Below are positions 21,789-62,941 of a DNA stretch of 64,000 nucleotides, in pieces. The position numbers and the translations under genes were made by a program. Source of the DNA: Granulibacter bethesdensis (GTDB lineage Bacteria > Pseudomonadota > Alphaproteobacteria > Acetobacterales > Acetobacteraceae); NCBI RefSeq assembly GCF_001889525.1, contig NZ_CP018192.1:1561493-1625492 (forward strand), read 5' to 3'. The notes under the pieces were generated by a model, which was not told the DNA's origin, ran no database searches, and was given only the letters and a program-made list of their open reading frames with translations. The first letter of the stretch is position 1, and each line of letters starts with the position of its first letter.

Positions 21789-23195
21789 TTACGGGATGGA
21801 TTTGCTGACATGGTGCAGGCGCTGCTTCAACTCACTCGCCAGCAGGAACGCCAATTCCAGCGACTGTTCCGCATTCAGGCGCGGATCGCAGAAGGTTTCA
21901 TAGGCGCGGCCAAGATCGGTCTCGGTCAGGCGGTGGGCGCCACCGATGCATTCGGTCACATCGCGGCCCGTCATCTCCACATGGATACCGCCCGCCCAGG
22001 TTCCTTCCTGCGCATGCGCGTCGAAGAAGCCACGCACCTCGCCAAGGATACTGTCGAAATTACGGGTCTTGATCTTGCTGTTGGTCGAGATCGTGTTGCC
22101 ATGCATCGGGTCGCACACCCACACCACCGGCACGCCAGAGCGCTTGACCGCCCGCAGCAAGGGCGGCAGGCGATCCCTCACCTTGTCTGCACCCATGCGG
22201 CTGATCAGGGTGATGCGGCCCGGCTCGGCGCGCGGGTTCAGCAATTCGCACAGGCGCACCACCTCATCAGGATCGGCATTCGGGCCGAGCTTGATGCCGA
22301 TGGGATTATGGATGCCGCGCATGAACTCCACATGCGCCCCGTCGGGCTGGCGGGTCCGCTCGCCAATCCAGATGAAATGCGCGGAGCAGCCGTAATACTC
22401 GCCTGTTGTGGAATCGACCCGGGTGAAGGCTTCCTCATAAGGCAGCAGCAGCGCCTCATGCCCGGTATAGAATTCGGTTTCCCGCACCTGCGCGGTGTCT
22501 TTCAGCCCACAGGCGGCCATGAAGCGCAGCGTTTCATCAATGCGGGTCGCCATATCCCGATACTGGCTGGCCAGCGGGGAACGCTCCACGAAGCCGAGAT
22601 TCCAGCGATGGACTTCATGCAGATCAGCGTAGCCGCCGGAAGCGAAGGCCCGCAGCAGGTTCATCCGGCCGGCAGACTGGAAATAGGCGGTCTCCATCCG
22701 TGCCGGGTCCGGCACGCGATCCTCCGCCGTGAAGGCCGGCCCATTGATGATATCACCGCGATAGCTGGGCAGGGTCTCCCCATTCACCGTTTCAGTATCA
22801 CTGGAGCGCGGCTTGGCGAACTGACCGGCCATACGTCCGACCTTCACCACCGGCAAACCAGCGCCGAATGTCAGCACCACCGCCATCTGCAACAGCACCC
22901 GGAATGTGTCACGGATGATATTGGCGGTGAAATCGCCGAAACTCTCCGCGCAATCGCCGCCCTGCAACACAAAAGCCCGCCCCTGTGCCACTTCGGCAAG
23001 CTGGGCCTTCAGACGGCGTGCCTCACCCGCAAAAACCAGCGGCGGATAACGATGCAGACGCTGCTCGACTTCACCCAGCGCAGCGGGGTCCGTATAGACC
23101 GGCACCTGCAAAATCGGGCGCTCACGCCAGCTTTGCGGCGTCCAGGCCTTGGCAGTAGCCGGGGCAGAGGGTCCGGCGGTCATGATCGTATCCAT
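21789..23195 (-). CDS. Class II 3-deoxy-7-phosphoheptulonate (DAHP) synthase
   Basis: A 468-aa plant-type (class II) DAHP synthase, the first enzyme of the shikimate pathway, condensing phosphoenolpyruvate with erythrose 4-phosphate. Typical sequence is visible along its length: [52 protein letters not shown], the WNLGF and EALLLPYEE segments, [13 protein letters not shown], the CDPMHGNT metal-binding block and the C-terminal [17 protein letters not shown] and [15 protein letters not shown] use ATG 23195 because sequence upstream lacks family similarity; another ATG at 23183 is possible. Class II enzymes are called aroF, aroG or aroH in different genomes, so I give no symbol. Confidence 0.93.
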
Positions 23196-23448
23196 TGCGT
23201 ATCTCGTTCCGGCAAATTCCGTTCTGTCCAACCGGGGACGGCATTTCTCTATCGCGCCGGCCAGACAATCCTTCCAAGCTACCCCGCACACCGCGCCCCG
23301 TCCAATCGTTGCCGTTTCACGTCAGGGGTGTGCCTCCGGCAACGCTGCATGACGGGCAGTAGTCTGAATTCACAACATGGCGCGTTATCCCTAACTTCAC
23401 AGCACGATGATCCCCGAATCGTATCCTCCACCAAGGACAGCCTTCTTC

Positions 23449-23940
23449 ATGAGTGGTCAGCCTGTCAGTTCCCGCCTGCCATCAACCCGCTTCTCTTCCT
23501 CCCGATGGGCGACAAGACTGTTCGACCTGTTCGAGGACGGGGTGATGCTGATCCTGACCATCGTCATCGTCCTGCTGGCCGCGCTGTCGCTCTGGAGACT
23601 GGTGGCATCGCTGGTGGTGATGCTGGCCGAGCACGGGCTGAACCCCTCCGACCCCCAGGTGCTGCAACGGATTTTCGGCATGATTTTTACCGTGCTGATC
23701 GCGCTGGAGTTCAAACACTCCCTGCTGCGGATCGGAGACGGGCGGGACCGGCCCGCCATTCGCATCCGCTCCGTCATCCTGATTGGTATGCTCACCACGG
23801 TACGCAAGTTCATCATCATGGACATCAAGGATACCGGCATGGTGGAGATGCTCTCCCTCTCTGCCGCGATCCTGTGTCTGGGGATCGTTTACTGGCTGGT
23901 GCGCGATCCGACCCCACGTCTGCCGGGGGAGCCATCCTGA
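23449..23940 (+). CDS. PsiE-like (phosphate-starvation-inducible E family) membrane protein
   Basis: A 163-aa inner-membrane protein with four predicted hydrophobic segments (residues about 35-60, 75-92, 105-122 and 133-150). It resembles the PsiE family (PF06146-type): FDLFEDGVMLILTIVIVLL, FGMIFTVLIALEFKHSLL, SVILIGMLTTVRKFIIMDIK. Function is unknown; the founding member is induced by phosphate starvation in E. coli. I chose ATG 23449 because AAGGA lies 11 bases upstream; an in-frame ATG at 23407 has none. It is 43 bases upstream of the receptor gene and may be the first gene of that cluster. Confidence 0.8.
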   Translation: MSGQPVSSRLPSTRFSSSRWATRLFDLFEDGVMLILTIVIVLLAALSLWRLVASLVVMLAEHGLNPSDPQVLQRIFGMIFTVLIALEFKHSLLRIGDGRDRPAIRIRSVILIGMLTTVRKFIIMDIKDTGMVEMLSLSAAILCLGIVYWLVRDPTPRLPGEPS

Positions 23941-23983
23941 ATGTGATCACATCCCTCCCTCGCCGCCACCTGATCCCGCTGCT

Positions 23984-26419
23984 ATGCCGGAACCAGCCGT
24001 AAGCAGGCGGGTTTATACCGCTCCGGTAATGAGACCGCACGGAGCCAGTCAGGAGATCGCGTTTTTGCAGCCCGCCGAGCAGCCCGATGAAGTCATCGAC
24101 CCAACCGGGCAACGACAGGAGCGTACCCGCCGCAAGCTGCGCCGGGTGCTGTTGCCCACCATCGGCATTACCCTGGTTCTCGGGTCCATGTTTGCCATAG
24201 GGTATCATTCCTATATTCTGGTGCGCACCAATACGATCAAGCTCTCCAACGAACTGCTCAACGCGACACAGAATTATATCGCTCAGGAAGTCACGACCTA
24301 TCTTTCACCTGCACAGCTTGGTTCCCGACTGGTGCAGGATCTGCTTCAGCATGGTGCGCTCGACAATAACGGCAAGCTGTTCAACTTCTACGCGGGCGGC
24401 ATGCTGCGGCAGGTGCCGCAAATTCAGGCTTTCTATCTCGCCAACTCGGATGGTGATTTTGCACTGGTACAGCGGGACGGCAATGGCGGAACGGAGATCG
24501 TGGTGGTGTCCGCCGGACCCGACCGGGTCAGGCTCCGTTCCGTTATTCGTAATAATGCCAATGGTGAACTGGTCTCCAGCGCCCCCCCCAGCCCCGATCC
24601 CTACGATCCTCGCACCAGCAACTATTATCAACAGCCCGTCAGGACCAAGCAGCCATACTGGTCCCCGCCCTATATTTTCAAACCCACCGGGCGTCCGGTC
24701 ATTACGACGTCCACCGCCTATCATAATGCGGATACCCGCGATCACGTCATTGCCGTCAACATCTCGCTGGATCAGCTATCGTCCTTTCTCGATTCTCTGA
24801 AGATCGGTGAGCACGGTTATGCGGTGATTGCGCAGAAAAACGGGCAGATTGTCGCATCGCGTGATGTGCTGGGTCAGGCCGCGCTCGATCCCGTCAAGGC
24901 GCACATCGCCGCTGATCCTAAAACCGGGCAGGACACTCCACTCTCCCGTGCTTTCAATATCTTCCATGTCAGCGGATACGGACCGGGCAGCTTTACCCTT
25001 AAGCGCGGGCAGGACAGCGAGGATTACGTTTTCATCGCCGCCAGACTCCCTGCCGGAGCACCTGACTGGGTACTGCTGATCGTGTTGCCGACAAAGGATT
25101 TTGCAGCCTTCGGGTCACAGGACAGCCGCAGCATGCTGCTGTACTCCGGCATGACAGTTGCGCTGGCCATGGTGCTGGCCGGTCTCCTGATCCGCCAGGG
25201 CAGACGGGTCGAGCACGTCATGGATGTTCTGACCGACCAGAACCAGCGGGCCGAGGACGAGCGCCGATCCCTGCAACAATTGATGAGTCATCCCGACATT
25301 TTCGACGGCAACGAGGAAGCACCTATCCTGACTGAACATCTCGCCTCCGTCAGTCAGGCACAGCGTGCCAGCATCTGGCATATCGGCAGAAACGGACGAA
25401 CCCTCCATTGTGAAGATATCTATGACCGTCGCAGGGACAGCCATATGGGCGGCTTCTCCCTCGGCATGACGGAAGCAGGACCATTGCTGGAGGCCATCGA
25501 AGGCGGCGAAGCGTTCACGATTCAGGATGCCGCTGCCGATCCCCGTACCGAGCGGCTTTACAGGCTGCATATGAGAAACAGCCAGACACGCTCTCTTTCG
25601 GTACAGCCCATCCCGGATCAGGACGGTTTTGTCGGTGCCATCATGCTGGAAGATGCCGGGCGGCTGGCTGAGTCCCGCCATATCGTCAGCATTCTCAGCG
25701 GTATCGTCGGTATCCGTCTGCGCAGCCAGACCGAGGCAGCAATGATACCGGACCTTTCCAGGCCGCAGACCATCGCTACGCAGTCTGCCCCGCCACAACC
25801 GGTGGCAACAGAGTCCTGCCTGCTTTCCCCCCATGATCAGCCTGGTCCGGACAGCCTGCAAAACGGCGTATTTCCTTCCATCGTGGCGATGGTCATCACT
25901 TTCGACGTGCAGCCTGTCGCCATCAGCAATCAGGCCGATCAGGCAGCCATCATCCGTCTTGTTGGAGACATGGCCTCGGATTTTCAGGAGATCGCACGCA
26001 CACACGATATTTTTTCCCTCAAACTGGCCGGGCACCGGTTGTTCGCCGTCAGCGGATGCGGCAGCACGCCTGATCCTCAGGCAGCATTTCAGATGGGGGA
26101 TGCCGCACTGGCGATCCGTGATGCGTGCATCACGCGGCTGGCGGGAGAGGAGATCGATCCAAATTTCCATATCGGCATTGATGTCGGCCCGGCCATGGGG
26201 GCATGGCTGGGAAAAGACCCGGCCGTCTTCAACATATGGGGCCACGCTTTGCAGGGAGCCGAGGCCATGACACAGGGCAATGCCCTGCCTGGCTCCATTC
26301 AGGTAACCGAAGCGGCCTACAAGCTGTTGCGTAGCCACTTCCTGTTCCGCAACCGGGGGGCGTTCTACACGCCGCAAACCGGTATCAGCCGTGCCTACAG
26401 CATGGCGGGGCGGCAATAA
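23984..26419 (+). CDS. Membrane receptor: Cache-like sensor, GAF domain and degenerate class III cyclase domain
   Basis: About 811 aa. A basic cytoplasmic N-terminus is followed by a transmembrane helix (55-77), a large periplasmic region (about 80-380) of double-Cache type (YYQQPVRTKQPYWSPP, GRPVITTSTAYHN), a second helix (about 383-404), a GAF-like domain (about 434-580) and a C-terminal class III nucleotide cyclase-like domain (about 634-800). The fold is recognisable from HIGIDVGPAMGAWLG and VFNIWGHALQGAEAM. Key residues look lost: one metal Asp may remain (D641 in VITFDVQ), the second metal site reads GHR (H684) instead of GD, and the transition-state Asn and Arg are replaced in LQGAEAM. 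It is thus probably a pseudo-cyclase. Its stop shares a base with the start of the MlaE gene. ATG 23984 is the first plausible start after the upstream stop. Confidence 0.78.
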   Translation: MPEPAVSRRVYTAPVMRPHGASQEIAFLQPAEQPDEVIDPTGQRQERTRRKLRRVLLPTIGITLVLGSMFAIGYHSYILVRTNTIKLSNELLNATQNYIAQEVTTYLSPAQLGSRLVQDLLQHGALDNNGKLFNFYAGGMLRQVPQIQAFYLANSDGDFALVQRDGNGGTEIVVVSAGPDRVRLRSVIRNNANGELVSSAPPSPDPYDPRTSNYYQQPVRTKQPYWSPPYIFKPTGRPVITTSTAYHNADTRDHVIAVNISLDQLSSFLDSLKIGEHGYAVIAQKNGQIVASRDVLGQAALDPVKAHIAADPKTGQDTPLSRAFNIFHVSGYGPGSFTLKRGQDSEDYVFIAARLPAGAPDWVLLIVLPTKDFAAFGSQDSRSMLLYSGMTVALAMVLAGLLIRQGRRVEHVMDVLTDQNQRAEDERRSLQQLMSHPDIFDGNEEAPILTEHLASVSQAQRASIWHIGRNGRTLHCEDIYDRRRDSHMGGFSLGMTEAGPLLEAIEGGEAFTIQDAAADPRTERLYRLHMRNSQTRSLSVQPIPDQDGFVGAIMLEDAGRLAESRHIVSILSGIVGIRLRSQTEAAMIPDLSRPQTIATQSAPPQPVATESCLLSPHDQPGPDSLQNGVFPSIVAMVITFDVQPVAISNQADQAAIIRLVGDMASDFQEIARTHDIFSLKLAGHRLFAVSGCGSTPDPQAAFQMGDAALAIRDACITRLAGEEIDPNFHIGIDVGPAMGAWLGKDPAVFNIWGHALQGAEAMTQGNALPGSIQVTEAAYKLLRSHFLFRNRGAFYTPQTGISRAYSMAGRQ

Positions 26420-27240
26420 TGCAGACAGCCACGATCCCGGCACAGAGTTTCGCACGGGTGCGGCTGTTTCTGCGCGTCATCGGACGCGGCACACGCAACA
26501 TGCTGCGCTTCCTGCTGATCATGGTCGCTGCCAGCGCCGGCGTGGTGCTGGAGGTCGGGCGCCCGTCCTGCTGGCGGCGAACCACAAGGGCCGCGTTCGG
26601 TCAGACCCTGCATCAAGCCGCGGGGGGCGGCGTGATCAGTACCCTGTTCACCGCGACACTGGTCGGGATCGCTATGATTTCGCAGGCCATCTACTGGCTT
26701 GGCTTTGCCGGCATGGTGGAGAGTACCGGCACGATCCTGGCAACCATTCTGCTGCGGGAACTGTCTCCGATTCTGGTCGGGATCATCCTGCTGGGCCGCA
26801 GCGGTATGCCAATGATCTCCGAGCTCGGCATGCTCAGCGCCAACGGACATATCAGAACCCTGGAGGCCCAGGGGATCGATCCATTCATTCTGATCATCGT
26901 GCCGCGCACCATCGCTTTCACCGTCAGCGCCTTCACGTTGGGAATGGTGTTTGCGGTGACGGCCCTGTGTGTCGGTTTTGCCGTCGCCACTGAGGAAGGA
27001 CTGATCACCCAATCCCTGTGGGGGTTTCTGACCAGTGTCACCGGATCAATGAGTGAACTGGATTATATCATCATCCCCTTGAAACTGATGGTGGTGGGCT
27101 TTCTGGTCGGGCTGTCGAGCTGTCTGACCGGCTTGTCGGCGCAGACCGATAACGATCTGCAGGCCCTGTTATCCCGCGGCTTTGCGCGTGGTATCCTGAC
27201 AGTCATGATCGTGAACATCCTGTTCACCGTCACGGTATAG
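26419..27240 (+). CDS. MlaE/YrbE-type ABC transporter permease
   Basis: A 273-aa inner-membrane permease of the MlaE family, which pairs with an ATPase and an MCE protein to move lipids across the envelope. The conserved core is present: TATLVGIAMISQAIYWLGFAG, LLRELSPILVGIILLGRSG, GIDPFILIIVPR, and five or so hydrophobic segments. The usual coupling segment NEEIDAL is changed to NGHIRTL, so the contact with the ATPase has diverged. It lacks the N-terminal STAS domain found in the homologue at 59476-60618. The ATG overlaps the upstream stop by one base (TAATG), and the next gene starts four bases after its stop. Confidence 0.87.
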   Translation: MQTATIPAQSFARVRLFLRVIGRGTRNMLRFLLIMVAASAGVVLEVGRPSCWRRTTRAAFGQTLHQAAGGGVISTLFTATLVGIAMISQAIYWLGFAGMVESTGTILATILLRELSPILVGIILLGRSGMPMISELGMLSANGHIRTLEAQGIDPFILIIVPRTIAFTVSAFTLGMVFAVTALCVGFAVATEEGLITQSLWGFLTSVTGSMSELDYIIIPLKLMVVGFLVGLSSCLTGLSAQTDNDLQALLSRGFARGILTVMIVNILFTVTV

Positions 27241-27244
27241 CCCC

Positions 27245-27931
27245 ATGTCCCGTGGTCTCACCGTTCTGGAACTTCGTCAGGCCCAACCGGATTTTGCCCT
27301 GACCGGCCTGCCGCAACGCCTTATGGACATGCGGCTGCAACAGGGCGAATGCACCTTGCTGACCACCCACGCCCAGATCACCGCCACTGCCTTCTCCAAC
27401 CTGTGCTGCGGTATACAGCATCCCTCCTCGGGAGCAGTGCTGTTTCAGGGGCTCGACTGGACGCAGATCAACACGCTGGAACAATATGCCCTGCGCGGAA
27501 GGATCGGCCGCACCTATCAACGCGGCGCATGGAATACATTGAGCGGGACCGACCACAATATCCTGCTGCCCCGCCTGCATCACACCAGACAGAAGCTGTC
27601 CGATCTGGTGGATGAGGCAGTCAAACTCTGTCTTGAATTTGGCCTTCCCGGCCTGCCAACCGTGCCCCCCGCCCATCTGTCAGAGACTGATCTGGCTCGC
27701 GCAAGCTATGTCCGCGCCTTCATGGGACAGCCTGCCCTGCTGCTGCTGGATCCTCCCCCGGCTCCAGAGATCATGCCCACGCTGCTGTCCGCCCTGACAC
27801 GTGCGCTGGATCGGGGGGCCGCCGCCATCTGCTTCAACACGGGCCGCAATAACTGGCGGCCCTTCGCCGATGCGTTTTCACACCGGTTTTTATTGAACGA
27901 TAACGGCCTCATCCCGCTACGGGTATCATGA
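27245..27931 (+). CDS. Degenerate ABC ATPase-like subunit (pseudo-MlaF)
   Basis: A 228-aa protein at the position of the MlaF ATPase and with its outline: LQQGECTLLTTHAQIT where Walker A should be, IGRTYQRGAWNTLSG (Q-loop region, Gln kept), LSETDLARASYVRAF (signature region) and ALLLLDPPPAP (Walker B). Walker A has lost the P-loop glycines and lysine, Walker B lacks the catalytic Glu, the LSGGQ signature is not intact and the switch His region reads ICFNTGRNN. It should therefore not hydrolyse ATP. The frame is uninterrupted and tightly coupled to its neighbours (ATGA overlap with the MCE gene), so it is a maintained protein rather than a decaying gene. It may be a structural subunit or may pair with an ATPase from elsewhere. 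Confidence 0.75.
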   Translation: MSRGLTVLELRQAQPDFALTGLPQRLMDMRLQQGECTLLTTHAQITATAFSNLCCGIQHPSSGAVLFQGLDWTQINTLEQYALRGRIGRTYQRGAWNTLSGTDHNILLPRLHHTRQKLSDLVDEAVKLCLEFGLPGLPTVPPAHLSETDLARASYVRAFMGQPALLLLDPPPAPEIMPTLLSALTRALDRGAAAICFNTGRNNWRPFADAFSHRFLLNDNGLIPLRVS

Positions 27932-28899
27932 TGCAGCACTCCGATCCTTCCACCCCTCCCGGTACGACCGTACGCCCGCTCTATGGACGGCGATATACCG
28001 ATGAATGGGTCGGGTTTCTGGTGCTGGCCTGCATCGCCGTGTTTGCCGGTGCCGTGATTGAGGCCGGGTTTCTGCGCGACTGGCTGAAGCCTCCCGGAGA
28101 ACTCCGCATCCTTCTCCCCCAGACAGGCGTTGGCGGCCTCTCCCCCGGTGCGGATGTGGAGGTCATGGGGATTCACGCCGGCATGATCCGCCGCATGAAA
28201 CTGAATGCCGATGGTGAAATGTACGCACTGGCCGAAATAGACCCGCAGGCGGAACCCTTTATCCGCCAGGACAGCAAGGCCACCATCAAACTGCGCTATG
28301 CGGTGGCGGGTGCTGCTTTCGTGTCGCTGACACGCGGCACCGGCCAACCTTTGGACTGGAATTATGCCGTGCTGTCCGCCACCACCGACCAGAACCCGAT
28401 GGAGATGCTATCCAGCACCATCACCGACATCCGCAAACAGGCGCTTCCGCTCCTGCACAATGCCCAGATGATCACAGAAAACCTCAGTGCCATTCTGAAA
28501 AATATCCGCGAAGGGAAAGGCAATGCGGGCAGGCTTCTGACCGATGATACGCTGGTGAAAGAGGCGGAAAGCAGCCTTGCCTCCCTTCAACAGGCCATGG
28601 CGCGGCTTGATCCAATTGTCGAACACGCGGACGGGCTGCTTGCCTCTACCAATGTTGTTCTCAACAACATGCGGTCTGCGACCGGCAATCTTGCAAAAGC
28701 ATCGAAGGATTTTCCCGCCGTCATGCAGAACGTATCGGGTATCACAAAGGATATTCCCCCGCTGGTATTGCAGGCGCAGGTTACGGCGCATGATCTTCAG
28801 AAGCTGATCGAGCAGGTGCGCGGCCTGTGGATTCTGGGCGGCAGCGGTACGCCACCCGCAGATATAAGACGGCTTCCTCCCTCGGCTGTCCAGCCATGA
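27928..28899 (+). CDS. MCE/MlaD-family lipid-transport protein
   Basis: A 323-aa protein anchored by one N-terminal transmembrane helix (about residues 28-48) with a periplasmic MCE domain next: LRILLPQTGVGGLSPGADVEVMGIHAGMIRRM, then KATIKLRYAVAGAAFVSLTRG. A long helical, coiled-coil-prone region follows (about residues 160-300: LLHNAQMITENLSAILKNI, SLASLQQAMARLD), as in MCE proteins that form periplasmic tubes or needles. It would bind and pass lipids between membranes. It overlaps the upstream stop and the downstream start by four bases each. The related intact system at 61407-62378 has a similar layout. Confidence 0.87.
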   Translation: MMQHSDPSTPPGTTVRPLYGRRYTDEWVGFLVLACIAVFAGAVIEAGFLRDWLKPPGELRILLPQTGVGGLSPGADVEVMGIHAGMIRRMKLNADGEMYALAEIDPQAEPFIRQDSKATIKLRYAVAGAAFVSLTRGTGQPLDWNYAVLSATTDQNPMEMLSSTITDIRKQALPLLHNAQMITENLSAILKNIREGKGNAGRLLTDDTLVKEAESSLASLQQAMARLDPIVEHADGLLASTNVVLNNMRSATGNLAKASKDFPAVMQNVSGITKDIPPLVLQAQVTAHDLQKLIEQVRGLWILGGSGTPPADIRRLPPSAVQP

Positions 28900-29705
28900 T
28901 ACGGGCCAGCGCCTTACCAGCCCTGTTCATGAGCATGTTGCTGTGTGGCTGCGGAAGACATGGCACGCCGCCTCTGCCGCAGGACCAGAAACTGTCCAAC
29001 GCTTTCGATACGGGCCTTCAGGCAATGCGCTATCTCGCCACCGATCAGGCGGAACAGAATTTCGAGACGGCTTATCAACAGGCGCTGCTGAGGGATGATG
29101 CATCGGCTCTGCACGATGCCGGATATGATCTGGCAACCGCCCAGTTGGCACATGGCAAGCTGCAACAGAGCCTTGACACTCTTAACCGCACCCGCACCGG
29201 GCTGCTCCTGCGCAATGATCATGCCGGGAAGCCTCTGCTCGATCTGGTGGAAGCGAGCGCCCTGTATCGCGCCCATCGCGATACCGAGGCATGGCAGGCT
29301 GCTTCCAGCGCCTTGCACTCCACCGATCCGGCCCTGCACGAGCGCGCCGCCTTCGTCGCCGGGCTGATTGCGGACCGGCAGAAAGACCTCTCCGCTCTGT
29401 CCTCAGCCCGACAGAAAATTGACCCTGCCCTGTCTCTGGTGGCAGCCGCCGATGCCGGGGAACTGGACACACGCCTTGCCATGCAGCGTGGAGCTTGGAA
29501 GGAAGCAATCTCAACCGCCTCTGTCCTCGCTGATCAGCGGCGCGCGCTGCTGGATTATCGCGGCATGCGCACTGCGCTTACTCTTGCGGAGGATGCAGCC
29601 ATCCGCGCAGGGGATGTCACATTGGCCACTGCTTTCCATACCCGTGCCGCCCAAAGTGCTGAAGCTGCTCAGCCTGCACAGAAGCAGATCAAAAACCAGC
29701 CGTGA
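28896..29705 (+). CDS. Lipoprotein with TPR-like helical repeats
   Basis: A 269-aa lipoprotein: MIRASALPALFMSMLL leads to the lipobox around LLCGCG (Cys 17 or 19). The rest is helical and Ala/Leu-rich with helix-turn-helix pairs resembling tetratricopeptide repeats (ATDQAEQNFETAYQQALL, YDLATAQLAHGKLQQSLDTL, RAAFVAGLIADRQ). ATG 28896 overlaps the MCE stop by four bases, so it belongs to the transporter cluster. By position it replaces the PqiC-type lipoprotein of the intact system, but I see no PqiC similarity. It may be an outer-membrane partner of the MCE protein. Confidence 0.72.
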   Translation: MIRASALPALFMSMLLCGCGRHGTPPLPQDQKLSNAFDTGLQAMRYLATDQAEQNFETAYQQALLRDDASALHDAGYDLATAQLAHGKLQQSLDTLNRTRTGLLLRNDHAGKPLLDLVEASALYRAHRDTEAWQAASSALHSTDPALHERAAFVAGLIADRQKDLSALSSARQKIDPALSLVAAADAGELDTRLAMQRGAWKEAISTASVLADQRRALLDYRGMRTALTLAEDAAIRAGDVTLATAFHTRAAQSAEAAQPAQKQIKNQP

Positions 29706-29766: not shown

Positions 29767-31143
29767 TCACCCGACCGTTCTGGTGCGGCTGCGCATGGTG
29801 ACAAACTCCTCGGCCGCAGTGGGATGGATGCCGATGGTGCGGTCGAAATCCTGCTTGGTGGCGCCTGTCGTGATCGCCACGGCCAGACCCTGCATGATCT
29901 CCGGCGCGTCTTCGCCGAACATATGCGCACCGACGATTTTCTGGCTGGCCTGATCCACCAGAAGTTTCATGAAGCTGCGGCGCTTGCGACCGCTGATCTG
30001 GTGTCGCATCGGTGTAAAGCCGGTCGTGAACACCTCTGTCGGGCCATTTTTCTCTGCTTCTTCCTCCGTCATGCCAACGGTCGCGATGGGGGGCGTCGAG
30101 AAAACCGCCGTTGGAACCTGATGGAAATTCCATACCTGACCGGCATGCCCGGAGGAAAACAGCCTGTTCGCCAGCATATGCCCTTCCGCCAGCGCCACGG
30201 GAGTCAGGTTCATCCGGTTGGTGACATCACCGATCGCATAATGCCCGGCTACATTGGTTTCCCAGCGATCATCAACCGGAATGGCTCCATCTTTTCCGGT
30301 CTCGATACCAGCTTCCTCCAGACCCAACCCCTGCGTTGCCGGTACGCGCCCGGTTGCAAAAAATACCAGATCAACCGTCAGGGTTTCTCCATGATCAAGC
30401 GTCAGGATCCTCTGCCCGTCATGTTTTTCGATCGCGGTAATGGTGCTGTCAGGATGGAGACGAATACCATCCGCCACGTAGGCATCAGCCAGAGCCGTCC
30501 TCATGTCGCCATCAAACCCCCGCAACGGCAGAGACTGGCGATAGATCAGATCCACCTCCGCCCCCAGCCCGCGAAACAATCCGGCAAATTCCACCGCGAT
30601 ATATCCGCCCCCCAGAATAGCGATCCGACGCGGCAGGGAGGGAAGGTGAAACGCATCATCCGAAACAATCCCAAGCTCCGCACCAGGAATATCAGGACGT
30701 GAGGGGTGACCGCCCGTCGCAATGACAATGCGCTCCGCCGTTATTTCCCGTGCCGTGCCGTCACCGCTGGTCAGACGCAAACGATGCGGAGCAAGCAGAG
30801 TGGCTCGGGCATCAATGATGTCTGCTCCGGCACTGCTCAGTATCCGGCGATAGGCTCCATTCAGACGCTCAATCTCCCGGTCTTTGGCGGTGATCAGTGC
30901 GGCCCAGTTATGTTCGCCGCGCTGCGTGTTCCAGCCGAAACCGTGGCTGTCCTCTACAAACCCGCCATATTCCGCCGCCTGCACCATGATTTTCTTGGGC
31001 ACACAGCCGACATTGACGCAGGTGCCGCCCCAGAAACGATCCTCGGCCACGCCGACCCGTGCCCCATGCCCGGCTGCAATACGGGCACAGCGCACACCTC
31101 CAGAGCCGCCACCGATGACAAACAGATCGTAATCATAGGCCAT
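29767..31143 (-). CDS. gor: Glutathione-disulfide reductase
   Basis: A 458-aa FAD-dependent pyridine nucleotide-disulfide oxidoreductase that reduces oxidised glutathione with NADPH in the cytoplasm. The FAD-binding GGGSGG is at residues 11-16 and the redox-active pair is C42/C47 in GGTCVNVGC. The second dinucleotide-binding fold is ILGGGYIAVEFAG. The FAD ribityl motif is YAIGDVTNRMNLTP and the catalytic HPTAAEE is near the C-terminus. The GGGYIAVEFAG and RKRRSF features fit glutathione reductase better than lipoamide dehydrogenase or mercuric reductase. I start at ATG 31143, where AAGGA lies about 10 bases upstream. Confidence 0.92.
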   Translation of the reverse strand: MAYDYDLFVIGGGSGGVRCARIAAGHGARVGVAEDRFWGGTCVNVGCVPKKIMVQAAEYGGFVEDSHGFGWNTQRGEHNWAALITAKDREIERLNGAYRRILSSAGADIIDARATLLAPHRLRLTSGDGTAREITAERIVIATGGHPSRPDIPGAELGIVSDDAFHLPSLPRRIAILGGGYIAVEFAGLFRGLGAEVDLIYRQSLPLRGFDGDMRTALADAYVADGIRLHPDSTITAIEKHDGQRILTLDHGETLTVDLVFFATGRVPATQGLGLEEAGIETGKDGAIPVDDRWETNVAGHYAIGDVTNRMNLTPVALAEGHMLANRLFSSGHAGQVWNFHQVPTAVFSTPPIATVGMTEEEAEKNGPTEVFTTGFTPMRHQISGRKRRSFMKLLVDQASQKIVGAHMFGEDAPEIMQGLAVAITTGATKQDFDRTIGIHPTAAEEFVTMRSRTRTVG

Positions 31144-31312
31144 GCGCTGTTCCTTCTGCTTTTCTGCGTCTCTGCCCAAGCGGGGATCGCTTATAGAGGC
31201 ATATGGTGTTTGCCTCCATTGCGTATTACCCTGTCCGCACCTAGCTGTAATACCAGAGGCGCGTCTATAAAGGGGGAAGAGATATTTTTCATAATGGAGG
31301 ATGGCCAAAGTG

Positions 31313-32101
31313 ATGAATATTTTTTCCCTGTCCTGCCGGTCATCTGTTCCGGCTTCCCTGTTGATGATGACAGCAATTTTTTTGCCGGCTCCCACATACG
31401 CAGAAGGGGTTACGCTGCATCAGCAGACAGCCATTGCCCCGGATATCGCCGCTTTTCCCCGCCCGGAGGGAAATACCCCTGCCCTTCAGCGCATCAACAA
31501 GGCACTCGAAAAAGCCGATGCCCGCGTGCTGAGCGCGGCAAAGGGGTGCAAAGGAAATGCAACGGAGGATACCCTCACCAAAGCTGATGGCTGGTCACGC
31601 AAAATCAGCGTCACCATGAACGGGCCAACTTATCTGAGCTATTTCGTCTCGGATTTTGCATCCTGTGGGGGCGCGCACCCGGATTATGGTTTTTTCCCGC
31701 TCGTCTACAATCTCGAAACCGGTTCTCCGGTCAACTGGGTCCGCGTTCTGCCTGCCTCCCTGATCGGCAAGGCCAGTCTGGACAGTGCGGAGGATGGAAC
31801 ACAGCTCGGTGTCGTGCAGTCTGCAGCGCTGATGAAGCTCTACCGGGCTTCCTATCCTCGTAAAGGCAATGTCGATCTCGATGCAGATGCCGTGAAAGAA
31901 TGTCTGGCCTCCGTCCTGACCGATGAAGTGCCCTTCATGCTATGGCCGGATGCGAAACAGCACGCACTGATGATCCAGCCATCCGGTCTGCCCCATGTGG
32001 TGGCGGCCTGTGCTGTCGGTGTTCCCCTGACCACGGACATATTACAAAAGAGCGGGGTGTCCAGCGCATTCCTGTCGGTTCTGGAACAGGCTCGCCCCTG
32101 A
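31313..32101 (+). CDS. Secreted hypothetical protein (DUF3298/RsiV-like region)
   Basis: A 262-aa protein with a signal peptide (residues 1 to about 30, ending PTYAEG). The central part (MNGPTYLSYFVSDFASCGGAHPDYG) recalls DUF3298/RsiV-like periplasmic domains, where the conserved GGAHP-type loop follows a beta strand, then a strand like FFPLVYNLETG. Three cysteines in the mature part may form disulfides. ATG 31313 fits the GGAGG at 31296-31300 better than the ATG at 31301, which sits directly on it. It is divergent from gor and convergent with the methyltransferase-fold gene. Function unknown. Confidence 0.7.
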   Translation: MNIFSLSCRSSVPASLLMMTAIFLPAPTYAEGVTLHQQTAIAPDIAAFPRPEGNTPALQRINKALEKADARVLSAAKGCKGNATEDTLTKADGWSRKISVTMNGPTYLSYFVSDFASCGGAHPDYGFFPLVYNLETGSPVNWVRVLPASLIGKASLDSAEDGTQLGVVQSAALMKLYRASYPRKGNVDLDADAVKECLASVLTDEVPFMLWPDAKQHALMIQPSGLPHVVAACAVGVPLTTDILQKSGVSSAFLSVLEQARP

Positions 32102-59438: not shown

Positions 59439-59475
59439 CTTGCATCATGGCCGTGGATCATTTCCCCTAGTCATT

Positions 59476-60618
59476 ATGGGAATCGACCAGACCAGTGCCT
59501 CTACCCTGTCGCCTGCATGGACCATGGCCAGTGAAGGCATGGTGGCAACACTAAGACTGTCGGGTGAATGGACTGTCGCATCAGGTGGGCTGAACACCCG
59601 ACCGATCGAGGCAATTCCAGGCGGCACGGAGCGATTGCTGATCGACGTTTCCGCGCTGCAGCGCTGGGATTCCGCGCTGATCTCCTTTCTGTGGTCGCTG
59701 GAGCAGCGATGCAACAACAGCGGAATCAAGCTGGATAACAGCACGTTGCCGCACTCTGCCCGAGGTCTGCTTGCCTTGCTGCCGGCGCATCCACATCCAC
59801 CTGCCCCCGCTCCGGCAAAGCATTTTGCGCCGGTTCAGGCCATCGGTGCCTCTACCCTGTCCATGCTCACGGAATGCGGCACCGTGACAGAGCTGGGCAT
59901 GGAAACCCTGCGCGGTGCAGGGGCCACCCTGTTTGGCGGACATGGCATGCGCTGGCGCGATCTGCTGCGCGATGTCAGCGATGCCGGCCCTTCCGCTTTG
60001 CTGATCGTTGGCATCGTCAATTTTCTGATGGGGTCCATCCTCGCTTTTGTCGGCGCGGTGCAATTGCGCAAATTCGCTGCGGATATTTACGTCGCGAATC
60101 TGGTGGGGCTGGCCTCGGTCCGCGAAATGTCGGCGGTCATGACAGCCATCATTATGGCGGGACGCACTGGGGGAGCCTATGCCGCGCGAATCGCTACCAT
60201 GACCGGGAATGAGGAAATCGACGCGCTGCGCGTGTTCGGGATTCCGGTCTCACGCTATTTGCTGCTGCCCTCCATCGCAGCGCTGGTACTGACCATGCCC
60301 ATCCTCTATCTGTATGCCTGCCTGATCAGCCTTGTCGGAGGCTATATCGTCTCACAGGGGATGCTGGATGTGACCATGGCCGGTTTCTGGAATCATTTGT
60401 TCGGCTCAGTCCATATCGACCAATTCGTATTCGGCTTTGTCAAAACCATCACCTTTGCCATGCTGATCGGATTGGTCAGTTGCCGGATCGGTCTCAAGGC
60501 CGGACGCAGCGCCGCGGATGTCGGTGTGGCCGCAACCCGCGCCGTGGTCAGCGGAATCGTCGGCGTCATCGCGCTGGATTCCATGTTCGCTGTCCTTGCC
60601 ACCATCATCGGGATTTAA
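59476..60618 (+). CDS. mlaE: MlaE-type permease with N-terminal STAS domain
   Basis: A 380-aa permease. Residues about 10-110 form an STAS-like domain (LRLSGEWTV, LLIDVSALQRWDSALISFLWS), as in MlaB but fused to the permease. The rest is a standard MlaE core: FVGAVQLRKFAADIYVANLVG, VREMSAVMTAIIMAGRTGGAYAARI, and the coupling loop MTGNEEIDALRVFGIPVSRYL. The product moves lipids with MlaF and MlaD. ATG 59476 is chosen; the frame is open from TTG 59440. The stop is four bases before the ATPase start. Confidence 0.85.
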   Translation: MGIDQTSASTLSPAWTMASEGMVATLRLSGEWTVASGGLNTRPIEAIPGGTERLLIDVSALQRWDSALISFLWSLEQRCNNSGIKLDNSTLPHSARGLLALLPAHPHPPAPAPAKHFAPVQAIGASTLSMLTECGTVTELGMETLRGAGATLFGGHGMRWRDLLRDVSDAGPSALLIVGIVNFLMGSILAFVGAVQLRKFAADIYVANLVGLASVREMSAVMTAIIMAGRTGGAYAARIATMTGNEEIDALRVFGIPVSRYLLLPSIAALVLTMPILYLYACLISLVGGYIVSQGMLDVTMAGFWNHLFGSVHIDQFVFGFVKTITFAMLIGLVSCRIGLKAGRSAADVGVAATRAVVSGIVGVIALDSMFAVLATIIGI

Positions 60619-60622
60619 GCTT

Positions 60623-61402
60623 TTGCAACCAGGCGATCATCCCGACAACGCGCTGCTCGGCATGCGAGACGTCACGCTGGGATTCGGCCCGAAGATCATT
60701 CAGCGCAACCTGTCTTTCGATGTGCGCAAAGGATCGATCTTCGCCGTGATGGGTGGCTCTGGCTGCGGCAAGAGCACCGTGCTGAAAAGCATGGTCGGAT
60801 TGCTGCGCCCCAAAGCGGGCCAGGTCTATGTGGAAGGGAATGATTACTGGGGCGGCACAGATGCGGACCGTACCGCGACCGGCCGCCGTTTCGGTGTGCT
60901 GTTCCAGAGCGCGGCGTTATGGAGTTCCATGACCGTCGGCGAAAATGTCGCCTTGCCACTGGAGATGTTTACGAAACTGACGCCCCGCCAAATCCGTTCG
61001 CTGGTGGAATTGAAGCTTGGTCTGGTCGGAATGTCCCACGCGATCGATCTGATGCCGTCTGAACTGAGCGGCGGGATGCGCAAGCGTGCAGGGCTGGCGC
61101 GTGCTCTGGCACTTGATCCCGACATCCTGTTCTTCGATGAGCCATCCGCCGGGCTGGATCCGATCACATCTGCCCGGCTGGATGATCTGATCATGACGCT
61201 GCGGGATGGTCTGGGGGCCACCATCGTCATCGTCAGCCATGAACTGCCGAGCCTTTTCGCCATCGCCGATGACGGCGTGTTTCTGGATGCACAGACCAGA
61301 ACCACGATCGCCCATGGTGCGCCACGCGACCTGCGTGATCATTGCGACGATCCGCAAGTGCGTGCCTTCATGAACCGCGATGCCCTGAACACGGAGAACT
61401 GA
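60623..61402 (+). CDS. mlaF: MlaF-type ABC transporter ATPase
   Basis: A 259-aa intact ABC ATPase. Walker A is GGSGCGKST, Q-loop FGVLFQSAALWSSMTV, signature LSGGMRKRAGLARAL, Walker B ILFFDEPSAGLDP and the switch His in IVIVSHELPSLF. It powers the MlaE permease upstream. The start is TTG 60623 or ATG 60662. All motifs are in order, in contrast to the homologue at 27245-27931. Confidence 0.92.
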   Translation: MQPGDHPDNALLGMRDVTLGFGPKIIQRNLSFDVRKGSIFAVMGGSGCGKSTVLKSMVGLLRPKAGQVYVEGNDYWGGTDADRTATGRRFGVLFQSAALWSSMTVGENVALPLEMFTKLTPRQIRSLVELKLGLVGMSHAIDLMPSELSGGMRKRAGLARALALDPDILFFDEPSAGLDPITSARLDDLIMTLRDGLGATIVIVSHELPSLFAIADDGVFLDAQTRTTIAHGAPRDLRDHCDDPQVRAFMNRDALNTEN

Positions 61403-61406
61403 CCGC

Positions 61407-62378
61407 ATGGTCAATCGTCAAACCGCCGTTGGTGCTTTCGTCATAGGCGGATTTATCCTCGGTGCCGCCGCGCTGATGACATTCGGGCATTTCCGTTTCT
61501 TCTCACAAAGTATCCGCGCCGCCGTGGTGTTTCAGGGATCGATCAGCGGTCTTGCCGTCGGTGCGCCAGTGACGTTTCGCGGTGTGCGGGTCGGTGCCGT
61601 GGAAAGCATTGCCATCACTTTCGATCAGGAAGATCAGGCCGCCTACATTCCTGTGGTGATCGACCTTGATCCCGATCAGGTGACGGTGGTGGAAAGCCAA
61701 CATGAGAACAACAGCACGCTCGATCTGAAACGACTGATCGCCCATGGTCTGCGCGCGCAGTTGAACATGCAGAGTTTTGTGACCGGTCAGTCCAACGTCA
61801 ATCTGGATTTCGATCCGGCTTCTCCCGCGCCGCTGCATCCGCGTCTTACAAGCCTGACGGAAATTCCTGTCAAACCCTCGGCTATTCAGAAGATGAAGGA
61901 TGTGCTGGCTGATCTGCCGCTGAAGGAACTTGCGGGAAGCGCCAGCGCTGTGATGGACAATATCCGCATCCTGTCGCAACGTCTGGATGATGATCTGCCG
62001 CCGTTGCTGGCCAGCATTCGCACTTCCTCCGAGCACTCCCAAAAGACATTGGACGTCGTTGCAGAGACGATGGTTGATCTTCAGAAAAACCTGTCCTCAA
62101 CAATTGCCAATCTGAACACGCTGCTGGTGAACGGCAACAGACAGCTCGATGCCCGCAGCGCCGATGCCCATGTCGCCTTGCTGAACATTGCCCGCACTGC
62201 CCAGCGTGCCACCTCTACGCTCGATACTCTGCGCTCCATGACAGCGGCAGGATCGGAAAGTCGCGTCAATCTGGATGATGCACTCCGTGATATTGCCGCC
62301 GCCGCCGCCGCCCTGCGCGGCTTTGCCAGCGATGTGGAGCGCAATCCACAACTCCTGCTGACCGGACGGAAACAATGA
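61407..62378 (+). CDS. mlaD: MlaD/PqiB-type MCE protein
   Basis: A 323-aa periplasmic MCE protein with one N-terminal helix (about residues 9-27: VGAFVIGGFILGAAALMTFG). The MCE domain reads FQGSISGLAVGAPVTFRGVRVGAVESI; a helical coiled-coil region (DDLPPLLASIRTSSEHSQKTLDVVAETMVD, broken here) follows. Its ATG is four bases after the ATPase stop, and its stop overlaps the lipoprotein start by four bases. Confidence 0.9.
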   Translation: MVNRQTAVGAFVIGGFILGAAALMTFGHFRFFSQSIRAAVVFQGSISGLAVGAPVTFRGVRVGAVESIAITFDQEDQAAYIPVVIDLDPDQVTVVESQHENNSTLDLKRLIAHGLRAQLNMQSFVTGQSNVNLDFDPASPAPLHPRLTSLTEIPVKPSAIQKMKDVLADLPLKELAGSASAVMDNIRILSQRLDDDLPPLLASIRTSSEHSQKTLDVVAETMVDLQKNLSSTIANLNTLLVNGNRQLDARSADAHVALLNIARTAQRATSTLDTLRSMTAAGSESRVNLDDALRDIAAAAAALRGFASDVERNPQLLLTGRKQ

Positions 62379-62941
62379 GACATCCTTCAGCTCTCGCTCT
62401 CTCCGCCCTGCTGCTGTTTGCAGGCTGCGCAGCGCCCGCCCTGCGCGTCTATACGCTGAGTGCGCCGGAATCCCACGCTCCGGCGGCTGAATCCATCCCT
62501 GCCAGACAGATCATCGGTCTGTCACGGGTGCAGGTGCCCGATTATCTCGACACACAGGACATTATCCTGAGACATGGCCAGGAACTGCATCGCAGCAGCA
62601 ATGGCCGCTGGGCGACCAGATTATCGCTGGGTATCACCGCCGCCATCGGTGACCGTCTGGCAGCCCGCTGGCCGGATGCCCAGATCGTACAGGGACCACA
62701 GAGCCAGTCGCCGGATAGCCGCATCCAGATCGTCGTGACACGCTTCGATGTCGGCGAGGATGGTCAGGCCCTGCTGGAAGCCGGCTGGACCATCACCCGG
62801 ATCGGCAGCAAACACGCACCGGAGCGGGACAGGACGGTGATCACTGCCTCCGGACCCGTCAAAACCGATGATGATATTGCCCGCATGATGCGCAGCATGC
62901 TGCTGCAACTGGCTGACCGGATCGTCCGGCCAGCCAAGTAA
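62375..62941 (+). CDS. ABC-type transport auxiliary lipoprotein (PqiC-like)
   Basis: A 188-aa lipoprotein with leader ALSALLLFAGC (lipobox FAGC). The PqiC-like core includes LRVYTLSAPE, IIGLSRVQVPDYLDTQDIIL, the NGRWATRLSLGIT segment and IQIVVTRFDV. It is the outer-membrane partner expected for MCE transporters of the Pqi/Mla type. ATG 62375 overlaps the mlaD stop (ATGA). Confidence 0.87.
   Translation: MRHPSALALSALLLFAGCAAPALRVYTLSAPESHAPAAESIPARQIIGLSRVQVPDYLDTQDIILRHGQELHRSSNGRWATRLSLGITAAIGDRLAARWPDAQIVQGPQSQSPDSRIQIVVTRFDVGEDGQALLEAGWTITRIGSKHAPERDRTVITASGPVKTDDDIARMMRSMLLQLADRIVRPAK

Follow-up and report, generated by a model that had tools for sequence, protein, structure and literature searches.

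A conserved MCE transporter module with an apparently non-catalytic ABC subunit and a degenerate cyclase-like receptor

Genes of the locus and its neighbors

What could an MCE transporter still do if its ABC subunit appears unable to hydrolyze ATP and the gene ahead of it encodes a receptor whose cyclase domain also looks dead? This is the question raised by the locus described here, and it bears on a field in which the energy source of MCE systems and the direction of lipid flow are debated. The window, meaning the whole 64,000-nucleotide stretch of DNA analyzed, belongs to a genome that is a single contig of 2.69 Mb. Positions 23984-29705 hold 5 co-directional genes for a dCache-GAF-cyclase-like receptor, an MlaE permease, an ABC ATPase homologue, an MCE protein, and a TPR-like lipoprotein, and psiE lies upstream of them. 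A sequence-only reading of this DNA had described 6 plus-strand genes packed with stop-start overlaps. All 6 genes were open, with zero internal stops; however, only 3 of the 5 junctions overlap. The psiE and receptor genes are separated by a gap of 43 bp and mlaE and the ATPase gene by a gap of 4 bp, whereas the receptor and mlaE overlap by 1 bp and the ATPase-MCE and MCE-lipoprotein junctions by 4 bp each. The dead ATPase had also been called genetically fused to the receptor; the two share an operon, but no fused protein was seen. The flanking minus-strand genes (21789-23291 and 29767-31395) are ordinary, encoding a class II DAHP synthase and a pyridine-nucleotide-disulphide oxidoreductase.

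The PsiE-family membrane protein (23407-23940, plus strand; PF06146, 97 bits) had been counted among 6 linked genes. We searched genome contigs with the permease to obtain 68 named loci, and psiE was not found in the available DNA of any of them, although it was upstream of the receptor in both congeneric genomes examined (2/2). Because psiE was not found at the 68 named loci, we did not count it in the module and rejected it as a module part; it is a genus-level neighbor, and the conserved order comprises the other 5 genes.

The receptor (23984-26419, plus strand, as are all of the features below) is an inner membrane protein of 811 aa composed of a TM segment, a periplasmic dCache domain, a second TM segment, a GAF domain, and a cyclase-like domain, as judged by Pfam, hydrophobic segments, and an orthologue upstream of mlaE in 60/68 named loci. 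Its dCache_1 sensor domain is at 24554-25051 (PF02743, 70.9 bits), its GAF domain at 25322-25705 (PF01590, 25.2 bits), and its class III cyclase-like domain, in which residue comparison found the catalytic residues replaced, at 25919-26368 (PF00211, 50.5 bits). The permease (26419-27240) is an MlaE-type protein of 273 aa without a STAS domain, identified by Pfam (PF02405, 120.6 bits, cut-off 22.5), alignment, and tree. The ABC ATPase homologue follows at 27245-27931. The MCE protein (27928-28899) has 323 aa, with one TM (hydrophobic segment 24-50), one MCE domain (PF02470, 40.5 bits, cut-off 25.1, residues 68-137), and a C-terminal extension of approximately 185 residues. The last gene (28896-29705) encodes a lipoprotein of 269 aa with the lipobox LCGC (Cys19), as supported by alignment. 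No Pfam family scored above its cut-off for this lipoprotein. It was modeled with confidence as a solenoid of helices (pLDDT 90.6), and structure comparison matched the model mostly to TPR proteins; two of its verrucomicrobial counterparts also have TPR family matches.

None of the listed NCBIfam families reached its cut-off for the 6 products, the list for the ATPase homologue comprising the best 25 of 47 families. None of the 6 products matched STAS, even at E up to 1, and the operon has no MlaB/STAS domain. The PqiA/LetA membrane protein is also absent from the module, the permease being MlaE by Pfam.

The genome has other MlaE genes. A second MCE cluster at 59440-62941 in the window encodes a STAS-MlaE fusion, an MlaF with intact motifs, MlaD, and an ABC_trans_aux lipoprotein, and looks like the Mpc system of Brucella as given in the available part of PMC12436622. 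Its ordinary MlaF-type ATPase, in this separate cluster, is encoded at 60623-61402 (ABC_tran, 105.9 bits, intact GGSGCGKST). The third MlaE locus of the genome (L232; G000:C1:2452881-2453513) has an ordinary MlaF adjoining it (L002).

Motif loss in the ABC subunit and the receptor

We refer to the ATPase homologue, a protein of 228 aa without Walker A, signature, catalytic Glu, or switch His, as the pseudo-NBD. It scored 25.4 bits against ABC_tran, barely above the cut-off of 25. The stretch at the Walker A place reads TTHAQITAT (27362-27388, located by sequence comparison and structure model), Walker B is LLLLDPP with the Asp kept and the Glu lost, the signature is LSETD, and the switch-His column holds Thr. 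The window protein thus lacks the Walker A Lys, the Walker B Glu, and the switch His, as the sequence-only reading had claimed, and so do nearly all of its relatives. Among 112 aligned orthologues, the Walker A Lys was present in 0, the switch His in 0, the catalytic Glu in 3, and the signature glycine pair in 1 (L203). Duplicate copies of loci were removed before counting, and the 112 sequences became 100 distinct ones after alignment trimming. A frame-shifted ordinary MlaF (L128), initially labelled dead, was left out of the counts. In contrast, 43/44 working controls had the Walker A Lys, and the remaining one has a gap there. Because identical losses were found in all of the orthologues examined, the motif loss is not due to chance.

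Other parts of the protein were retained. The entropy at Walker A was 2.92 bits in 37 dead sequences versus 0.43 bits in 44 working sequences, whereas the Q-loop plus helical subdomain was as conserved as in the working relatives (1.81 versus 1.79 bits). The Q-loop Gln itself is kept in the window and in 8 other sequences. New near-invariants have appeared in the pseudo-NBD, namely W72, R84, W96, and P138. The structure model has a full ABC fold, and a misalignment of the P-loop was rejected because strand 36-41 and helix 44-55 of the model are joined by a mere two-residue turn. The dN/dS of the pseudo-NBD was 0.00-0.23 in 11 pairs, compared to 0.00-0.06 for the permease in the same 11 pairs; for the 8 pairs outside the genus, the last 660 bases per frame were used. 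Of the pseudo-NBD matches in the family, 87/89 had no stop codon, and the other 2 had one internal TGA and open frames of 251 aa.

These data indicate that the pseudo-NBD is almost certainly non-catalytic, and that its gene is under selection, with a dN/dS well below 1 as the earlier reading had expected. Decay of the ATPase and cyclase genes into functionless sequence would also explain the lost motifs, and in one nearly complete family genome (G126) the MCE gene is broken up between two frames (G126:C1:302694-303579) and there is no pseudo-NBD match at E 1e-40, likely a decaying copy. However, random decay was rejected by the dN/dS values, the entropy, and the rarity of stops, all measured on the ATPase homologue, and the loss is common to several phyla and is accompanied by new invariants; we regard this explanation as scarcely credible. 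Conservation among the relatives therefore stood, and random decay did not, save for the one likely case of G126.

The second would-be enzyme gave a comparable, though less uniform, result. Class III cyclases depend on a pair of metal-binding Asp residues, a base-specificity Asp, and a transition-state Asn and Arg. The cyclase domain of the receptor aligns with solved class III cyclases (best E 7.6e-14). In the window, His replaces the second metal Asp, Asn the base-specificity Asp, Gln the transition-state Asn, and Ala the transition-state Arg. This agrees with the earlier description of a cyclase without one metal residue and the transition-state Asn and Arg. The column aligned with the first metal Asp holds Gln, with an Asp immediately before it. 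Across 61 receptors, the transition-state Arg was never present (0/61), the base-specificity Asp was always Asn (61/61), and only L098 and L099 had the second metal Asp (2/61); 19 receptors retained the transition-state Asn and 50 the first metal Asp. The loss looks graded, since L098 and L099 lack the Arg yet have the second metal Asp. Both would-be enzymes are, as had been proposed, degenerate yet conserved in open frames.

A motor might instead be borrowed, with an MlaF from the genome's own Mla or Mpc-like system pairing with the pseudo-NBD on the permease or replacing it; the ATPase at 60623-61402 had been put forward for this role. Ordinary ATPases do accompany the genome's two other MlaE loci, and the permease has kept a GIDP...PR stretch, which we take to be the coupling helix. 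However, the pseudo-NBD orthologues lack Walker A in 112/112 and the signature glycine pair in 111/112, and the new invariants suggest that the pseudo-NBD has a role of its own. Each site of an ABC dimer requires Walker A from one subunit and the signature from its partner, according to the available part of PMC7756269, so a mixed pseudo-NBD/MlaF dimer would have no complete site. The MlaF heterodimer was, therefore, rejected as the main reading, and complete replacement by an MlaF homodimer is the sole likely form of borrowing. We consider borrowing quite improbable.

Distribution of the module and its link to cyclase sensors

The 5-gene order, without psiE, was complete in 60/68 named loci; L093, L096, and L105 were scored as misses, and L093 and L096 are at contig ends. 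In 16 loci compared, with the window included, the 4 core genes were present in 16/16 and the receptor in 14/16, whereas genes outside the module were common to at most 6. Pseudo-NBD genes were detected in 89/299 genomes of the family, one copy each (86/250 among good-quality genomes), and the MCE protein in 92/299. The module is rare elsewhere in the class: outside the family, permeases scoring >290 bits came from two genomes (G649 and G334) among 385 searched, and the next best match was 131 bits. A phylum sample yielded a pseudo-NBD of the module type in 4/299 genomes (at least 235 bits; next best 96), three of them from the family itself.

More distant phyla also carry the module. In Verrucomicrobiota, the phylum of L101, a module-type permease was found in 21/145 genomes, the centre genome included. 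Walker A was read in 14 of these 21 genomes, besides the centre genome, and was missing from the NBD adjoining the permease in 14/14 further loci examined. A desulfobacterial bin and a Sumerlaeota bin have the module type as well. In the desulfobacterial phylum, only the centre genome of 148 had a module-type permease above 171 bits, and because it is the lone case, L099 could have come by transfer or could represent a stray contig; L103, likewise, consists of one contig from a metagenome bin.

A 100/99 branch divided the tree of 75 permeases. On one side were 36 dead systems from at least 3 phyla together with L101, which has no NBD gene. The other side held 29 systems with an intact Walker A, 4 without an NBD found nearby, and 5 dead systems. 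These 5 indicate that the ATPase motifs were lost again outside the main clade, and the motifs of MlaE systems seem to have been lost repeatedly. The motif loss is old and crosses phyla, a point missed by the sequence-only reading. Selection has maintained the 4-gene core of MlaE permease, pseudo-NBD, MCE protein, and TPR lipoprotein as an old unit. A membrane receptor gene with a degenerate cyclase domain lies ahead of this core in the majority of the Pseudomonadota loci analyzed.

Several individual loci depart from this plan. NBDs without Walker A occur in a sister permease group, apart from the main clade (L191, L192, L194, L198, and L187). At L101:5839-7682, the MlaE permease is followed directly by the MCE gene, without an intervening NBD gene, and the same genome additionally has a dead-NBD copy (L186). 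Another subgroup (L229:9684-10703, L102, L223, and L231) has related genes adjoining the module; the gene in L229 is an alpha/beta hydrolase.

A cyclase sensor was also linked to the core in another phylum. In 7/21 verrucomicrobial module genomes, the order was mlaE, pseudo-NBD, MCE, TPR lipoprotein, SH3 protein, M48 protease, and CHASE2-adenylate cyclase, and the CHASE2 cyclase motifs were intact in those 7 genomes. CHASE2 was found in 20/21 module genomes versus 35/124 other genomes (Fisher p 4e-9, uncorrected for kinship), and 11/12 module genomes checked separately had a single CHASE2 gene. The link between core and cyclase sensor therefore recurs, here with an intact cyclase, an association that the earlier reading had also missed. 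However, the verrucomicrobial cyclases are intact and of other architecture, so a gating mechanism common to both groups would be conjectural. Gating by the receptor is not general, because the core occurs without a receptor match (at E 1e-15) in 3/7 core-bearing genomes searched, namely that of L102 and two from Roseomonas.

These results bear on two further scenarios. The transporter, ATP-independent by itself, and the receptor could be co-expressed for a common stress without touching each other. The existence of the core without the receptor fits this scenario; on the other hand, the receptor and core occurred together in 14/16 loci in which outside genes were shared by at most 6, and a different cyclase sensor lies beside the core in another phylum. 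We judge simple co-expression improbable. Alternatively, the module could be a trans-envelope sensor with no bulk lipid transport, in which the stack of permease, pseudo-NBD, and MCE protein informs the receptor about the state of the lipids or the envelope, or joins its signaling complex. The dead look of both would-be enzymes, the sensor protein as first gene in 60/68 named loci, and the other cyclase sensor in Verrucomicrobiota are in line with such a role. However, the MCE protein and permease retain ordinary domains, the permease dN/dS of 0.00-0.06 (11 pairs) is as for a working pore, and 3/7 core-bearing genomes searched had no receptor match, making a pure sensor rather unlikely.

Proposed mechanism and comparison with known systems

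We propose that the module is a receptor-gated MCE lipid conduit without ATP hydrolysis by its own NBD, a variant of the MlaFED type with a non-catalytic structural or regulatory ABC subunit; we rate the chances of this reading as about even. Docked on the MlaE dimer via the conserved Q-loop/helical region, two pseudo-NBDs would hold the permease or switch it. Through its long C-terminal extension, the MCE hexamer would reach toward the outer membrane, where the TPR lipoprotein may anchor it, and lipid would flow down its gradient or by another energy source. The periplasmic dCache domain of the receptor may sense an envelope cue, upon which the cyclase-like dimer would contact the pseudo-NBDs and open or shut the conduit; that the receptor touches the NBD is conjectured from the gene order of the operon. 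Independence of the complex from ATP is probable, and gating by the receptor falls just short of an even call. The earlier suggestion of a sensing device or passive lipid conduit remains the best reading.

More broadly, a transporter with a dead motor that is kept by selection beside a dead-looking sensor enzyme suggests that an old pump was rebuilt into a signal-controlled conduit or sensor. We tentatively extend this to an old ABC lipid transporter that may have become a signal-gated, ATP-independent trans-envelope device, with the NBD dimer as a receptor-controlled clamp, cyclase-type sensors recruited more than once, and the design spread over several phyla. A natural clade that keeps the permease, the NBD shape, and the MCE protein without the ATP motifs separates what the NBD contributes as a structural part from what it contributes as a motor. 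The module also makes it possible to test directly if a lipid bridge can be gated by a membrane sensor.

In the open-licence literature searched, we found neither an MCE system described as having a dead ATPase nor a cyclase receptor described as part of an MCE operon, in agreement with the sequence-only reading, which knew of no described system combining the two. This suggests that the module is an apparently undescribed variant of the MCE transporter with an unusual ABC pseudo-enzyme. A survey of Mla in 1083 genomes identified MlaF by synteny and noted that MlaF annotation was uncertain (available part of PMC10665443); annotation by synteny would label pseudo-NBD genes as ordinary MlaF.

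The receptor shares its fold family and domain types with dCache/GAF class III adenylate cyclases; unlike those enzymes, the module receptors have lost the transition-state Arg in 61/61 and the second metal Asp in 59/61. ABC exporters with one degenerate site, such as TM287/288, likewise lost catalytic motifs under selection, but they retain one competent site, as the available part of PMC7756269 describes, whereas the module's own dimer would have both sites dead, Walker A included. The Pqi/Let systems resemble the module in MCE transport without an ATPase domain. PqiA and LetA have none according to the available part of PMC12436622, so MCE systems without an ATPase domain do exist; these systems differ in using the membrane protein PqiA/LetA instead of MlaE and in having no NBD-like subunit.

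The Mpc system of Brucella abortus (MpcEFDA), thought to bridge both membranes, has a permease, an ABC subunit, a long MCE protein (331 aa there, 323 in the module), and a lipoprotein, but its ATPase is MlaF-like and its permease is fused to STAS, as reported in the available part of PMC12436622. The Mla system of E. coli (MlaFEDB) likewise has an MlaE permease, an ABC-fold subunit, and a single-domain MCE protein in one operon, whereas the module has no STAS protein in its operon and has a TPR-like lipoprotein and a receptor added. In E. coli, MlaF is an active enzyme and the system depends on ATP hydrolysis (available part of PMC7367683), whereas the NBD of the module is dead. Catalytically dead MlaF does not complement in E. 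coli according to the same source, so the parent machine needs ATP. This counts against an ATP-free reading of the module, and, because such dead variants fail in E. coli, an ATP-free module would be a real change of mechanism.
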